From Diploptera punctata (lineage: Eukaryota; Arthropoda; Insecta; Blattodea; Blaberidae): DNA of 64,000 bases. The notes beneath the pieces are model-generated. The model made no database searches. It saw nothing but the letters and a program-made list of their open reading frames with translations, and had not been told where the DNA came from. The DNA is taken from assembly GCA_030220185.1 (NCBI GenBank), contig JASPKZ010010277.1:310001-374000 (forward strand), read 5' to 3'. Shown piece by piece: positions 8,721-60,528 of this stretch (positions are counted from its first letter, which is position 1; each line of letters starts with the position of its first letter). Both the position numbers and the translations under genes were made by a program.

Positions 8721-9240
8721 ATTTACTTACTTACTTACTCACTGGCAATATCGAACCCGTAGGTTCATGGCCGCACGGACATACGCTCTCCATACATCCC
8801 TATCCTGAGCTAATGATTTCCAATCATTCCCTGTATAATCTACTTCCCTCAAATCATAGTTAATGTTATTTTCCCACCTCATTCTTGGTCTACCAACTGG
8901 GCGTCTTCCCTCTGGCTTTCCTACAAGAAGCTTCCATGCAAGTCTTTCATTCCCCATACGTGCAACATGTCCTGCCCATCGCAGTCTACGAGACTTAACT
9001 GTTCTTATTATATGTGGCTTCCTATAAAGACCATGTAGTTCATTGTTATGAAGTCTTCTCCATTCACCTGTCTCTTCATCTCTCTTTGGTCCAAAAAATT
9101 TCCTAAGTACTTTATTCTCAAATACTTTTAATCTCCTTTCCTCCCTTAAAGTAAGAGTCCATGTTTCGCATCCATATAATATAACTGGTAGAATAATAGT
9201 TTTATATATTTTCAGTTTAACGTTTTTTGAAAGGAGTATC
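8721..9240 (-). pseudogene. Non-LTR retrotransposon (GTAA-tailed family L1), 3' fragment
   Basis: On plus the fragment starts ACTTACTTACTTACTCACTGGC, so on minus the element ends in a (GTAA)n tail. The minus frame encodes MGNERLAWKLLVGKPEGRRP, then RPRMRWENN and AQDRDVWRAYVRAAMN, the C-terminus of the reverse transcriptase protein also seen at 41210-41896 (about 90% alike by eye). Upstream frames give RTVKSRRLRWAGHVARMG-like and FGPKRDEETGEW-like segments. Homology stops at about 9240, a 5' truncation. Confidence 0.85.
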
Positions 9241-9249
9241 TTATAGGGT

Positions 9250-17844: not shown

Positions 17845-17846
<2 letters not shown>
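17191..17846. other. No gene seen
   Basis: Contains a short (AT)n run at 17228-17246; otherwise unremarkable AT-rich sequence. Confidence 0.4.

Positions 17847-17911
<65 letters not shown>
17847..17911. repeat. (AAT)n microsatellite
   Basis: About 21 uninterrupted AAT units. It abuts the reverse transcriptase frame at 17914, marking the 5' truncation point or an expanded target site. Confidence 0.95.
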
Positions 17912-17913
17912 TA

Positions 17914-19043
17914 TTGAAAGAACAAGGTTTAGACCGTAAAACTCTTGCACGTATTAGACAGACAGTAACAGATAAAAGGGCTAAAGTTAAATTCATGGGG
18001 GAAATTTCTGAATCCTTTGAAATTAAGACAGGAGTAAGACAAGGACATGGACTTTCTCCACTACTCTTCAATTGTGTTCTTGATAAAGTAATACAAGAAT
18101 GGTGTAAACAGAAAACAATTTTTAAATGTAATCAACAAATCATATTAGGAAGAGGAAAATTGAAGATTGATTGCCTAGCATATGCTGATGATCTAGCAAT
18201 TTTATCCCGTGACATTGTAACAGCACAAAAACAGATTGAATTATTAAATGACATTGCAGAGAAAGTTGGTCTTCAGATTTATTTTGAAAAAACGGAATAT
18301 ATTTCATGCAATAAACAAGCAGCAAAATACCTGGAAACCAAATATGGAAAAATTAAACGAGTTTCACAATTTAAATATCTTGGTGAAATAATTCAGGAAA
18401 ATGGAATTGAAACTAAAGCCAATAAAAGTAGATGCCAAAAAATGAAAACAGTATTTCGGCTTACTCACAATATTTATAATAAAAAATGCTTATCTTTACA
18501 TACAAAATTACGACACTATAACACTGTAATTAAATCAGAATGCCTTATGGAGCAGAAACATTAATTTTGAACAGAAAAAAAGATATCGAAAATATAGTGA
18601 AAAAAGAATGCAAAATTATAAGAAAAGGTTTAGGTCCACAAGTCATAGGTGAAGCATTTAGACTCAGAAGTAAAAAGTAAATAAAAATATATACAGACAA
18701 TCATAGTGATATTAGAAAACGAAGGTTAAAATTGTATGGCCATATTAAACGAATGAACTCAAATAGGCTTACAAAACAGATAATGGAATTCTACGAAAAC
18801 AGAAGTAAAGGTCCAGTGGATACTATGAAGTGGATTGATGAAGTCAAAAAGGACTTAAAATTGGCAAGAATTACTAAAGAAGATATCCCAAACAGAGATA
18901 TATTTAGAATTAAGGTGAATAAGTGGCAAGTTGACCAAGAGGACAAACCGAAGAAAACAACTGGAACAACTTTGACAGATGGTAGAAAACAAGCTCATAG
19001 CAAAAGAATGAAAGAAATTTGGGCTCAAAGGAAACGCCTCTAA
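17914..19043 (+). pseudogene. Non-LTR retrotransposon reverse transcriptase, C-terminal half (family L5)
   Basis: The first frame (17914-18564, 216 codons) carries KTGVRQGHGLSPLLFN (RT motif with RQG and LSPxLFN), the catalytic YADDLAIL, then ISRDI and FKYLGEIIQENG. A frameshift near 18550 leads to YGAETLILNRKK, KLYGHIKRM and, in 18732-19043, a basic tail ending KRMKEIWAQRKRL with TAA at 19041. A sequence AACATGGGCTCATCCGCAAT and A10 follow as the 3' end. The catalytic YADD is intact, but the fingers domain, endonuclease and ORF1 are missing and the frame is broken, so it is not autonomous. Confidence 0.88.
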
Positions 19044-21274: not shown

Positions 21275-21594
21275 CAGCTGTTGTCGACTTCCCGTGTCAA
21301 ACCTCCAAAGCCTGCGATCTTGGGCACCTTCAGTTCTTAACTCTCTTGCTTGCATTGCTATCCTCATGCTTTCCTTCCGTTAACTTTGGTCTCCCTTTTT
21401 TATTCTTTCTGGTCGGTTGCCATTGATATAGTTGTTTCGGCCATCGCTCATCTTCCATTCTTAAAATATGTCATAATCATCTTAATTCCTTCTCCTCAAT
21501 GCTTTCAATTATGCTTTCTTTAGCTTTCATTATATTTATAATTTCCTTATTTGTGACATGTTCTAATTTTAACTTTCTGGTACATCTGTGTAAA
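21275..21594 (-). pseudogene. Non-LTR retrotransposon fragment interrupted by the palindrome at 21608
   Basis: The minus frame contains INGNRPERIKKGRPKLTEGK and similar pieces (GRPK motif of ORF2 C-termini). It resumes after the palindrome at about 21911-22035 with sequence on minus giving YLVNQ and WSGMDQ-like residues. Strongly decayed. Confidence 0.45.
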
Positions 21595-21675
21595 TATTTC
21601 TAGATCTGCAGGCTTTCACGGCCGGTAATCATGGTTATAAAAGATTCCGGGCTATGTGGCCGTGGTCTATAACTG

Positions 21676-21732
21676 GCGTTTCTTCCAGACGTTTCTCCCT
21701 CAACTGCGGAGGGCATCTTCAGTGGCGAGCGC
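21676..21732 (-). ncRNA. Hammerhead ribozyme, mirror copy on the minus strand
   Basis: The reverse complement has CTGAAGA (21716-21722 on plus), the same CCCTC/GAGGG stem, GAAAC (21691-21695) and GTC (21688-21690). All core bases are conserved. With the plus-strand copy it forms a head-to-head pair 65 bp apart. Confidence 0.75.
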
Positions 21733-21798
21733 TTACAGCTGTTGTTTCCCTGTCGTAGACTCGCAGTCGAGTCTACGACAGGGAAACAACAGCTGTAA

Positions 21799-21855
21799 GC
21801 GCTCGCCACTGAAGATGCCCTCCGCAGTTGAGGGAGAAACGTCTGGAAGAAACGC
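21799..21855 (+). ncRNA. Hammerhead ribozyme, type I, intact core, CGTC class
   Basis: Stem I has GCG (21799-21801), an internal loop, and CCA (21806-21808), pairing with TGG (21844-21846) and CGC (21853-21855). Core CTGAAGA is 21809-21815. Stem II is CCCTC (21818-21822) with GAGGG (21830-21834) plus a T21816-A21835 closing pair. GAAA is 21836-21839. Stem III is only ACGT, self-complementary, with predicted cleavage after C21843. Such a short stem III cannot form a stable hairpin in one molecule, so two copies are expected to pair as a dimer, as described for minimal hammerheads of Penelope-like elements. Confidence 0.75.
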
Positions 21856-22036
21856 CAGTTATAGACCACGGCCACATAGCCCGGAATCTTTTATAACTAT
21901 TTCTAGATCTATTAGTCTATTCTTATAGTATTTATTGATTGGTCCATACCTCACTTCCATAAATTGCAACTGATTCCACAAATATTTTACCAACATATTT
22001 TCAGGTGTCTTTTCAAATGTGCTTAATCAAAGCCGG

Positions 22037-32945: not shown

Positions 32946-33030
32946 GATTTGAACCAGGAATCGAACCGTGGACCTCTAGTTCTCCAGACTAGTGTGCAGC
33001 CCACTACACCATTCCACACCTGGCACAAAC
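32946..33030 (-). repeat. tRNA-like sequence T1
   Basis: Minus strand: TGTGGAATGGTGTAGTGGGC (box A-like), an anticodon-type arm CTAGT-CTGGAGA-ACTAG (5-bp stem, 7-nt loop), and GGTTCGATTCCTGG (box B). The T-arm stem mispairs and the acceptor ends do not pair, so this is a tRNA-derived pseudogene or SINE head rather than a functional tRNA. A second copy is at 33495-33582. Confidence 0.65.
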
Positions 33031-41183: not shown

Positions 41184-42838
41184 CTTACTTACTTACTTAC
41201 TCACTGGCACTATCGAACCCGTAGGTTCATGGCCGCGCGGACATAAGCTCTCCATACATCCGTATCTTGAGCTAATGCTTTCCAATTATTTCCTGTGTAA
41301 TCTACTTCCTTGAAATCATAGTTAATGTTATTCTCCCACCTCATTCTTGGTCTACCAACTGGGCGTATTCCCTCTGGCTTCCCTACAAGAAGCTTCCATG
41401 CAAGTCTTTCATTCCCCATACGTGCAACATGTCCTGCCCATCGCAGTCTACGAGACTTAACTGTTCTTATTATATCCGGCTTCCCATAAAGACCATGTAG
41501 TTCATTATTATGTAGTCTTCTCCATTCATCTGTCTGTTCATCTCTCTTTGGACCAAAGAAAATACTAAGTACTTTATTCTCAAATACTCGTAATCTCCTT
41601 TCATCCCTTAAAGTAAGAGTCCATGTTTCGCACCCATATAATATAACTGGTAGAATAATAGTTTTATATATTTTCAGTTTAATATTTTTTGAAAGGAGTT
41701 GGGACATCAAGAGTCTCTGCAATGCATAATAGCACGCATTTCCAGAATTGAGCCTATGTTTAATTTCTTTGTGCATCTCATTCCTATTTCTGATTATTGT
41801 TCCTAGGTATTTGAATTCAGCCACTTCCTCAAAATTTCCCTCATTTGTCATTAGCTGTCCATTTCCATTATATAATGTATTTCTACGTGTGACCATATAT
41901 TTAGTTTAATTGATATTTACTTTCCAGTCCTAATTTTTTAGTGTTACTCAATAGCGTGTGCGTGTTGTCCTTTAGTATCTCCTCTCCATCAGCCAATAGT
42001 ACTACATCATCAGCATAAACTAAGAGCTTATTAATACCATTGAGTTGTAAGCCTTCCTCATTCTCTAAGATTTAATGGATCATCAGCATAAACTAAACAG
42101 CTTATTAATACCATTGATTGTAAGCTTCCTCTTCTCTAAAGAATTATGGCCTGCTCCTAAAGTACAAAATTAAGAGGAGATAGTGCATCTCCTGCTTCAA
42201 CCATTCTGGATTTCAAAAGTGTCCGAAAACTGTTTTGCCTACACGCACCCTACTCTTTGTGTCATTTATACACATTCGTATTAGTCTACCTAACTTTAGG
42301 AATTCCGAACTCCAGTCAGGATACTATAATAATTCTTCTCCTCCTTAATTGAATCATATACGTTTTTGAAGTCTACTTATAGTTGATGTACAGTACCATT
42401 ATATTCCCATTTCCTTTCTAAAATTAGTTTCTTATACCAAAATCTGATCTGTTTGTAGACCTGTTTCTTCTAAATGCACATTGAATGATCTCCTAGAATG
42501 TCATCAATGTAGGGAGTAAGTCTGCTGACTAATATATTTGTTAGAATTTTGTACGAAGTTGAAAGTAATGAGATGCCCCTGTAGTTGTTGCAATCAGTTG
42601 TATCTCCTTTCTTAATAATTGGTACGATAATTGATTCTTTCCATTCATCTGGAAGAGCTTCTTTTTCCCAAATCATACTAAGCAATCAGCGTAATCTTGT
42701 CCATCAATTTTTCTCCCCCTTATTTTATCAGTTCTGCTGGGATCTCATCTGAACCTGATGCTTTATACATCTTCAATTTTTCAATCGCCATTTCAACCTC
42801 TAATGCACTTGGTTCTGCGACTAGCATTTCTTCTGTCT
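41184..42838 (-). mobile_element. L1 non-LTR retrotransposon, 1.65 kb, 5'-truncated, inside unit B4
   Basis: The insert has a (GTAA)n tail at its 3' end (41184-41200 on plus). The host unit reads ..CGTTTTA before and GTTTTTAATATTGCAG after, so GTTTT or TTTTA is duplicated. This is the longest L1 copy in the window and shows reverse transcriptase, thumb and C-terminal regions in order. An internal 50-bp duplication of the YADD region (TCATCAGCATAAACTAA at 42011 and 42081) is also present. Confidence 0.85.
41210..42815 (-). pseudogene. L1 reverse transcriptase, RT core broken, C-terminal 228 codons open
   Basis: Upstream pieces: ALEVEMAIEKLKMYKASGSD and EIPAELIK (42720-42815), then in 42470-42685 EWKESIIVPIIKKGDTTDCN and NYRGISLLSTSYKILTNILV (RT fingers), later a broken RLIRMCINDTKSRVRVGK and the catalytic YADD (near 42010). 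Codons 41210-41896 form one frame: EVAEFKYLGTIIRNRNEMHK, LKIYKTIILPVILYGCETWT, RRLRWAGHVARMG, GRPRMRWENN, WRAYVRAAMNLRV. The motif set is RTE/jockey-like; I leave the clade open. The RT core has many stops, while the last 228 codons are clean. Confidence 0.88.
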
Positions 42839-59259: not shown

Positions 59260-60354
59260 TCACAGATGTTCTATGTGAGCGCCTTTTGTTACACGATAGA
59301 TGTCAAGCCGATATTCAATCTCCTGCCAAACTTTCTGTAGCAGTCCGCGGTCGATATCAGCAATGGCTGCTGTGATGCGGGCACGCAGTTCATGCAGTGT
59401 TGTTGGAAGTGGTGGTACGTAAACATGATCCTTTACAAGACCCCACATGAAGAAATCACACGGGGTTAGATCTGGTGAACGAGGTGGCCAATGAATGAGT
59501 TGTTGATCACCCTGAGATGCACGGCCTATCCAGCGTTGTGGTAAAGCCGTATTCAAATGGTCTCGAACACTGCCATGGTAATGTGGAGGGGCACCATCCA
59601 ACTGCAGAATGAAATCTGGACTATCCGCTTCAAGCTGCGGAAGGAGCCATTATTTTTATTTTTTATTTTTTTTTATTTTATTTATTTAGCCTGGTGGCAT
59701 ATCAAGGAAAACATGTCCGTTCACAGTACGTTCATGAAAGAAAAAGGGCCCATAAACCTTTGCATGGGAAATGGCACAAAAGACATTCACTTTCGGAGAA
59801 TCGCGTTGATGTTCCAGAGTTGCATGGGGGTTACCAGTTCCCCAAATCCTTACATTGTGTCTATTCACTTTTCCTGAAAGGTGGAAAGTCGCTTCATCAC
59901 TGTAAACTACCCTCTCATGGAACTCATTCTCTTCCATTAATGCGAGAAAATCAACACAGAAGGACGCTCGCAAAGCATAATCGGCGGGTTTTAAGGCTTG
60001 AACCAGTTGCAAGTGGTAGGGTTTCATCTGTAAACGTTTCCGGAGAATCCGCCATACAGTTTTTTGTGGTAGTTGAAGTTCTGTCGCTCCCCGGTAGGTG
60101 GATTTCTGTGGACTCCGCACGAAGCATGTGCGAACGCGTTCGACTGTCTCTTCACTCGTCGACGGACGGCCAGTCGATTTTCGTTTACAGATACAGCCTG
60201 AATCCCTAAATTGTGTGTACCACTTACGAATGCATCTCCCATCCGGCGGGTCTTTGTCGTATCTGGTACGGAAATGTCGTTGAACACTAGTCACAGAGTT
60301 GTTTACATGGTAATCAAGCACACAGAAAGACTTCTGATCCCCAGTCAACGCCAT
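59260..60354 (-). pseudogene. Rosa-type mariner transposase, open except for one insertion
   Basis: From ATG at 60354: helix-turn-helix (SVTSVQRHFRTRYDKDPPDG, CIRKWYTQFRDSG), linker STGRPSTSEETVERVR, second helix set (LPQKTVWRILRKRLQMKPYH), first Asp in VYSDEATFHLSGKVNRHN, then GHVFLDM where a 46-bp A-rich insert adds a stop (59686-59688). After it the frame continues LLPQLEADSPDFILQLDGAP (second Asp) and IHWPPRSPDLTPCDFFMWGL (third Asp), ending TKGAHIEHL. There are 41 residues between the second and third Asp, the spacing of the rosa group. All three catalytic Asp are intact, about 355 codons in total. A plus-strand 171-codon frame here is the antisense shadow. Confidence 0.9.
59651..59697 (-). 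mobile_element. Minimal retroposon insertion (family L3 tail) inside the transposase
   Basis: On minus it is CCACCAGGCTAAATAAATAA and an A-rich tail. CCACCAGGCTAAATAAAT is exactly the 3' end of family L3 (compare 31240-31265 in reverse), so only about 10 bp of element body plus tail inserted. No clear TSD. Confidence 0.65.
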
Positions 60355-60528
60355 TTTCCTTTACTGCTCTGCTGTTGACATCTTGCGGGTGAACGCGGAA
60401 CTTTAGAAGTGGACAACTAAACTTTGAGAGTTTGCCTTTCATACAATATGTCTCACGATATTATATGTTCATTACATTTCACATAATAAATTTCTGAAAA
60501 CCTGCACAACATTTTGACTTGCCCTGTA

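Follow-up and report, generated by a model that had tools for sequence, protein, structure and literature searches.

In the twin priming of LINEs, both ends of the target use a single RNA as template and an inversion results; such 5' inversions are occasional and are primed at varied places. Several related findings concern Penelope-like elements (PLEs). The purified protein of PAc, a PLE of Anolis, cuts and extends both target strands in vitro, and reverse transcription starts inside the RNA near the start of the ORF, at two adjacent sites between which the genomic tail (30-40 bp) is found; one of the start regions is 111-118 bp downstream of the beginning of the ORF, and the start sites of the top and bottom strands were not seen to differ (PMC11167929). 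Penelope copies of Adineta vaga were described as having an inverted pLTR beside a direct pLTR, an optional 31-bp tail on one inverted pLTR and TSDs of 8-10 bp, and the palindromes and inverted pLTRs were attributed to self-priming on an antisense template (PMC3846280). The hammerheads of PLEs were characterised as "lacking the helix III" (PMC6155905), and the metazoan non-LTR retrozymes are built of directly repeated tandem units that carry canonical type I hammerheads, and they give circular RNAs (PMC7229834).

The window that we analysed is a stretch of 64,000 nt of the Diploptera punctata genome (contig JASPKZ010010277.1), and it contains a palindrome whose arms (21631-21763 and 21768-21900, 133 nt each) are 99% complementary and separated by a 4-nt loop. 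The features of the locus are listed in Table 1. A sequence-only reading had described a palindrome between 13-bp direct repeats with hammerhead core letters on both strands, all of which were confirmed in the window; it was also right that the unit is a real insertion with a TSD, is present in many copies and is tied to the hammerheads of Penelope-like elements. Moreover, its expectation that a transcript of the whole palindrome would form a single hairpin agrees with the predicted folding energies, -284.5 kcal/mol as against -40.4 for one arm alone. The TSD TATTTCTAGATCT is exact over 13 nt and reaches 17 nt if one mismatch is allowed, and the leader (21608-21630) is present at the left end only. 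The two arms carry just 83 and 109 nt of the PLE ORF and the RT/EN ORF is absent; the unit is therefore a PLE-derived insertion, not an element itself. We consider it very probable that the palindrome represents a "two-ended 5' stub" left by an endonuclease-type PLE, i.e., that both 3' ends of the target primed on the same RNA and that the resulting cDNAs were joined.

Table 1. Features of the palindromic insertion (positions in the window)
Feature	Position	Strand	Basis
Left TSD TATTTCTAGATCT	21595..21607	.	direct-repeat comparison
"Leader", a PLE tail between two presumed RT start sites	21608..21630	-	copy comparison; comparison with the PAc tail
Tail (site-2) arm, putative antisense copy of the PLE mRNA 5' end from RT start site 2 to the centre	21608..21763	-	copy comparison; in-frame homology to PLE ORF start
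First 109 nt of PLE ORF, open; ATG at 21716-21714	21608..21716	-
Hammerhead-like core, left arm (CTGAAGA - stem II - GAAAC GTC); predicted cut between 21688 and 21687	21688..21722	-
Junction of the two cDNA arms CTCGCAGTCGAG, adjoining the presumed mRNA 5' end; varies among copies, here 3 nt common to both arms	21760..21771	.
Site-1 arm, putative sense copy of the same mRNA 5' end; ends at RT start site 1 (..TTATAAC, +83 of ORF)	21761..21897	+
Hammerhead-like core, right arm; predicted cut after 21843	21809..21843	+
First 83 nt of PLE ORF; ATG 21815-21817 overlaps hammerhead stem II	21815..21897	+
Right TSD TATTTCTAGATCT	21898..21910	.	direct-repeat comparison

Elsewhere in the window, a tRNA match above the Rfam gathering score (32951-33014, minus strand, 39.6 bits) represents either a gene or a tRNA-derived repeat, and open stretches at 8739-9248, 17845-18564, 41210-41905 and 59260-60360 resemble, by eye, the C-termini of retroelement RTs and a mariner-like transposase.

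The comparison of copies showed that each arm corresponds to the 5' end of a PLE transcription unit, comprising the 5'UTR, a minimal hammerhead and the first ~28-39 codons. The left arm is open from an ATG in the hammerhead stem II (CTGAAG-ATG) and reads MPSAVEGETSGRNASYRPRPHSPESFITMITGRESL; in three related loci, L055, L064 and L114, the frame runs past the tail into the PLE ORF (..MITGRESLHSTIKRLYGEESYLR..; in L055 ..HSTIKRLYGEESYLRIRRLETLRKKK..). One piece of L055 matched RVT_1 (9.9e-8), and a Pfam scan of two other pieces of this locus gave no match. When the genome was searched with the 103-aa N-terminus of the PLE, all 150 candidates that were scored among 1,604 first-look candidates matched at E<=2.6e-50, many of them in uninterrupted frames of 847-874 aa and some spaced ~2.58 kb apart, as is expected of tandem PLEs. 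A continuation from the tail into the ORF was found at no fewer than 321 places (<=2 mismatches), a lower bound owing to the mismatch limit that amounts to ~3.5% of the tails and includes the satellite array at C8326.

One insertion of a donor-type element can be followed from end to end at the locus L128, which has an 858-aa open frame with an RVT_1 match (5.2e-14). Its residues 717-753 matched GIY-YIG (PF01541) with E 0.0021 and 18.7 bits, below the Pfam cut-off of 22.6 bits, a point that counts against an endonuclease-type donor. To describe positions in the arms, we used a sense-RNA coordinate, q, in which q1 is ATTCGCAG, the ATG lies at q57, the predicted hammerhead cut follows q85, site 1 is at q139 and site 2 at q172 or a few letters further. 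The order in L128 is a TSD (AAACTATAAAT), an inverted arm that begins with the tail, a direct arm with the ORF, a TATA-bearing pLTR and the second TSD; the inverted arm is 98% identical to the arm reference and continues past q1 into the promoter, and the terminal pLTR, with its TATA box, ends at site 1 (98%). The palindromes have the geometry of L128 minus the body. The donor PLE can be characterised by an ORF with a presumably telomerase-like RT domain, found in L128 and in the L055 piece, by a pLTR with the ORF start and a minimal hammerhead without helix III, and by a TSD and two inverted pLTRs of which one bears a tail of 30-40 nt, as seen in L128 and the sampled pairs.

Another locus, L078, was put aside as proof of a GIY-YIG donor, its GIY-YIG match being on the strand opposite its pLTR, and L128 was used instead. 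None of the 30 GIY-YIG loci that were fetched (L078-L107) could be assigned to the PLE family of the palindrome, which likewise counts against the model. Inverted repeats of >=60 nt, self-palindromes included, were present in 26 of these loci, and in several a further hammerhead-like motif (CTGATGATGGAGATAAGCTCCGAAACTGCAGTC type) lies close to the GIY-YIG match; they may represent other PLE families with similar inverted structures.

Further insight came from the copies of the palindrome in the genome (3.12 Gb). A DNA search gave 794 first-look candidates, of which 40 were scored and ranked according to their identity with the window copy, and the window copy was compared with 39 others. Among them, L021 and L034 share flanks and represent one insertion, and L017 and L027 lie within microsatellites. 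The expectation that the copies would share both ends and have TSDs held for the outer ends, which were common to all 40 except that the GTGGAAT stretch at the left end varies in length, and for the direct repeats, which scored >=9 in 34 of the 40 (a raw, uncalibrated score). The centre was not shared. Most copies have GTGGAAT as the outermost part of the leader and the window copy does not; GGAAT precedes the leader in 38 of 40 copies, the exceptions being the window copy and L020. The left end of the window copy is a slightly shorter variant. As for the centre, 26 distinct forms were counted in 39 copies (L031, whose centre lies inside the search motif, was left out), in which the arms overlap by 1-3 nt, abut bluntly or are separated by a filler of 1-6 nt. 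The commonest form was that of the window itself, in 10 of the 39, as is expected of copies that had been ranked by identity to it.

These results bear on whether the palindrome is a compact, non-autonomous element, foldback/MITE-like or self-transcribing, that transposes as a fixed unit. The number of copies, their TSDs and their near-identical ends are what such an element would leave, and the sequence-only reading had concluded that the palindrome moved as this unit. In a foldback element or MITE, however, the termini and the interior are inherited together, and this was not the case here: the centre varies, and in the unselected sample of tail sites described below the positions of the inner ends are spread across >100 nt. 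Additionally, the relatives extend beyond both ends of an arm, reaching the PLE ORF in frame on the tail side and the TATA promoter on the inner side, which that reading had itself named as evidence against its view. The promoter segment was absent from all 40 best copies and present in only one (L124) of the 35 inverted pairs of the sample, so that, L124 excepted, the stubs have no promoter of their own. Since a TATA box is found 32 nt before q1 in L052, L070 and L128, q1 is the likely cap site; exactly half of the 70 inner ends of the 35 pairs fall at q1-q13, and the centre of the palindrome lies near this presumed cap site. We therefore regard a fixed transposing unit as extremely improbable. 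Because the centre is not inherited, the palindrome must be rebuilt at each insertion, and, as far as can be judged from the copies, it is most likely made anew at each integration from the RNA of the PLE.

One copy, L011 (C9314), has four arms, two antisense and two sense, in one TSD, with the outer repeat AATTTAAGTTGA. Its tail-to-cap-site junctions are as expected of end-to-end template jumps; a circular RNA template was considered for this tandem junction and was not adopted, as an end-to-end jump explains it equally well.

In order to characterise loci that had not been ranked by their similarity to the window copy, we used the tail, GGCCGTGAAAGCCTGCATTCCAC, which occurs 9,200 times in the genome (<=1 mismatch; reversed control 0). 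The sample consisted of the first 50 of 100 tail places in contig order, all of them exact matches, and BLAST pieces below 30 bits were dropped. Head-to-head inverted pairs were found at 35 of the 50 loci, L064 and L114 being counted among them although their sense arm continues into the ORF. The antisense arm started at q135-147 in 33 pairs, the others being L053 (q119) and L063 (a 28-nt piece, q29). The outer ends were found at two positions, +83 and ~+116 of the ORF, ~33 nt apart, which resembles the arrangement of the two internal RT start sites of PAc (PMC11167929). A TSD score of >=8 was reached by 25 of the 35 pairs and by 9 of 1,190 swapped flanks of different loci. The 10 pairs with no TSD at this score count against the model of a two-ended stub, as do the 15 loci that were not scored as inverted pairs, which comprise single arms, of which L122 is clean and has a TSD, copies that are decayed or rearranged, complete promoter-bearing pLTRs (L052, L070) and one ORF copy (L055). 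Extrapolating 35/50 to the 9,200 tail sites suggests an estimate of several thousand head-to-head pairs genome-wide. Moreover, of the 4,234 places with an exact hammerhead core, 100 were listed, and neighbours at a distance of up to 300 nt were head-to-head in 23 cases, tail-to-tail in none and direct in three; close opposed copies were thus shown to be head-to-head, 23 of 23 among those listed.

The pairs also made it possible to weigh two primings on one RNA against fold-back, i.e., a single priming after which the 3' end of the cDNA snaps back and copies itself. Fold-back would account for the best copies, which are perfect palindromes with small loops, and for the overlap of 1-3 nt at many centres; the blunt joins and the filler of 1-6 nt at other centres speak against it, as does the second arm, which ends at a fixed site and does not run on into the target. 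Sorted by inner ends, both arms reached q13 or less in nine of the 35 pairs, only the tail arm was truncated in 13, only the site-1 arm in four, and both were truncated in nine. In the 13 pairs with a truncated tail arm (12 without L063, which lacks a proper site-1 start), the partner reaches q1-10, and the arms differ by >=24 nt in 10 of them (9 of 12 without L063), for example in L050 and L056. The antisense arm of these pairs holds sequence that is missing from the tail arm, and the tail is missing from the antisense arm. Because each arm holds sequence that is absent from its partner, neither can be a fold-back copy of the other.

At the same time, the arms of a locus share their template. 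There were 76 variants common to both arms of a locus; when arms were exchanged between loci in 2,000 swaps, the number averaged 15.7 and never exceeded 41, from which we conclude that both arms derive from one template sequence. A further 104 variants were confined to a single arm, as expected of mutations that arose later. In the set of the 40 best copies, 38 of which were parsed, the subfamily variant at +81 was present in both arms or in neither. In the parsed copies, the four distinct shared variants (+9, +21, +24 and +81) are all at third codon positions and three are synonymous, and 18 lone substitutions (indels left out) are scattered over the arm. When both arms were truncated, they stopped within 13 nt of each other in eight of nine pairs (permutation p 0.00015). 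This concordance can be read in favour of fold-back, especially in the two pairs that end at stem-loop II (q60/q72), which could be fold-backs; it is also as expected if both arms read the same broken RNA. The nine near-full-length pairs and the concordantly truncated ones would likewise fit the fold-back of one cDNA. As the sole route, fold-back is contradicted by pairs such as L050 and L056, and we consider it unlikely as the explanation of the palindrome; it could account for a minority of the products.

With regard to the hammerhead, the claim of two intact, opposed ribozymes was borne out for the core letters, CTGAAGA...GAGGGAGAAACGTC, which occur once per strand, the core of the tail arm being on the minus strand. 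Exact matches to the 35-nt core number 4,234 across the genome, and they are not due to chance since the reversed control gave none. The word "intact" could not be upheld: helix III has no loop, GAAAC being followed directly by GTC, the base of stem II has a possible U-A pair and a bulged G, and no Rfam hammerhead family was found at the gathering score in the window or at E<=10 in 21500-22000. The Rfam matches at the palindrome that were set aside are miRNA families, caused by the hairpin, and one weak lncRNA match. The lack of a helix III loop is shared with the PLE hammerheads as described earlier (PMC6155905).

A core in each arm raises the question of a metazoan retrozyme, in which the hammerhead cuts RNA into circles that are later reverse transcribed. 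The non-coding, hammerhead-bearing arms and the TSDs, where present, resemble the small repeats of that class, and the same sequence also forms tandem arrays at other loci (L129, 88-bp period; L130, ~251-bp period). Additionally, the single-arm insertion L122, which runs from q86 to the tail within a 13-bp TSD, begins exactly at the predicted cut. However, retrozymes are described as direct tandem repeats with type I hammerheads (PMC7229834); the arms here are inverted, and their hammerhead is not of the canonical type I. Half of the inner ends lie beyond the cut site, and exact 5' ends across the genome (all four preceding letters off-template) had no clear peak at it, with 14 at q82, 6 at q84, 24 at q86, which is the cut, and 31 at q88, counts for which the anchors were unequal in length and in which 12 of the 31 at q88 resemble small indels. 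Ends two letters beyond the cut were at least as frequent as ends at the cut itself, so that the counts give no clear indication of cut RNA as a preferred template. The idea prompted by L122, that the hammerhead cut sets the template end, was dropped on the same counts, and the direct arm of L128 starts near q88, not exactly at the cut. A retrozyme origin of the palindrome is very improbable in our judgement.

Tandem arrays related to the arms were observed at several loci. In L129 (G000:C9:407100-408300), an 88-bp unit is repeated 9.8 times with 95% matches, to near the end of the fetched stretch; the unit spans ~q14-q105 of the PLE arm, head to tail, with a hammerhead-like core in each unit, some of them changed. 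By its unit, this is a very small hammerhead satellite, apparently derived from the PLE 5' end. The array at G000:C8326:573170-581709, of which L130 covers 361 bp, has a period of ~251 bp and a unit that runs from q1, the presumed cap site, through the tail and ~80 nt into the ORF; the spacing between places in the list points to further arrays at C1591 (179 bp) and C1588 (244 bp). These three look like retrozyme-type satellites seeded by PLE cDNA.

For the two-ended stub, which remains our preferred explanation, the following course of events can be proposed. The PLE protein, bound to its own mRNA, would make a staggered cut in the target, and both 3' ends of the target would serve as primers within the RNA, each of them at one of the two start sites of reverse transcription. 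Both cDNAs would soon run off at the cap, because the start sites are near the 5' end of a single-unit mRNA, or would stop early, and they would then be joined by microhomology or filler into an inverted pair without the body. If the long arm started in the downstream unit of a tandem transcript, the product would be a classical ORF-bearing PLE with one inverted pLTR. As it lacks a promoter, the stub is most likely dead on arrival.

Both starts of the stub have a fixed position close to the 5' end of the RNA, which distinguishes it from the twin priming of LINEs. PAc shares several features with it: both have the ORF ATG at the hammerhead stem II, AT-rich targets and two internal start sites, with site 2 at ~+116 here and a start region at 111-118 bp there (PMC11167929). 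In contrast to PAc, the two ends of the palindromes nearly always use different start sites, a difference that counts against the model, and ORF-less head-to-head products, which are abundant here, are unmentioned in the parts of its report that were surveyed (PMC11167929). The elements of Adineta vaga share the inverted pLTRs, the tail, the TSDs, the junction palindromes and a pLTR with the first ORF codons, whereas the pair there flanks the ORF or captured sequence and the body is missing here (PMC3846280). Our data favour two primings on a sense RNA, unlike the self-priming on an antisense template proposed for Adineta. In the titles and abstract openings that we surveyed, ORF-less head-to-head PLE insertions were undescribed, and priority is uncertain.

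It may be that two-strand priming on one RNA is the normal way in which PLEs integrate; we see the chances for and against this as even. It would then be no accident: every insertion would be a head-to-head pair of cDNAs, with the inverted pLTR as the short partner and the tail as the distance by which the start sites are offset, and the commonest product in this genome would be the ORF-less palindromes. For annotation, the results are a warning that such palindromes are not independent MITE-like elements. The integration of PLEs is poorly understood, and the footprints in the genome record how this class inserts. The stub is modest as an object, but, as a mass record, it is informative: thousands of short, TSD-flanked products provide a statistical readout of the PLE integration reaction, with its two start sites, one RNA, sense template, cap-limited ends and end-joining at the centre.
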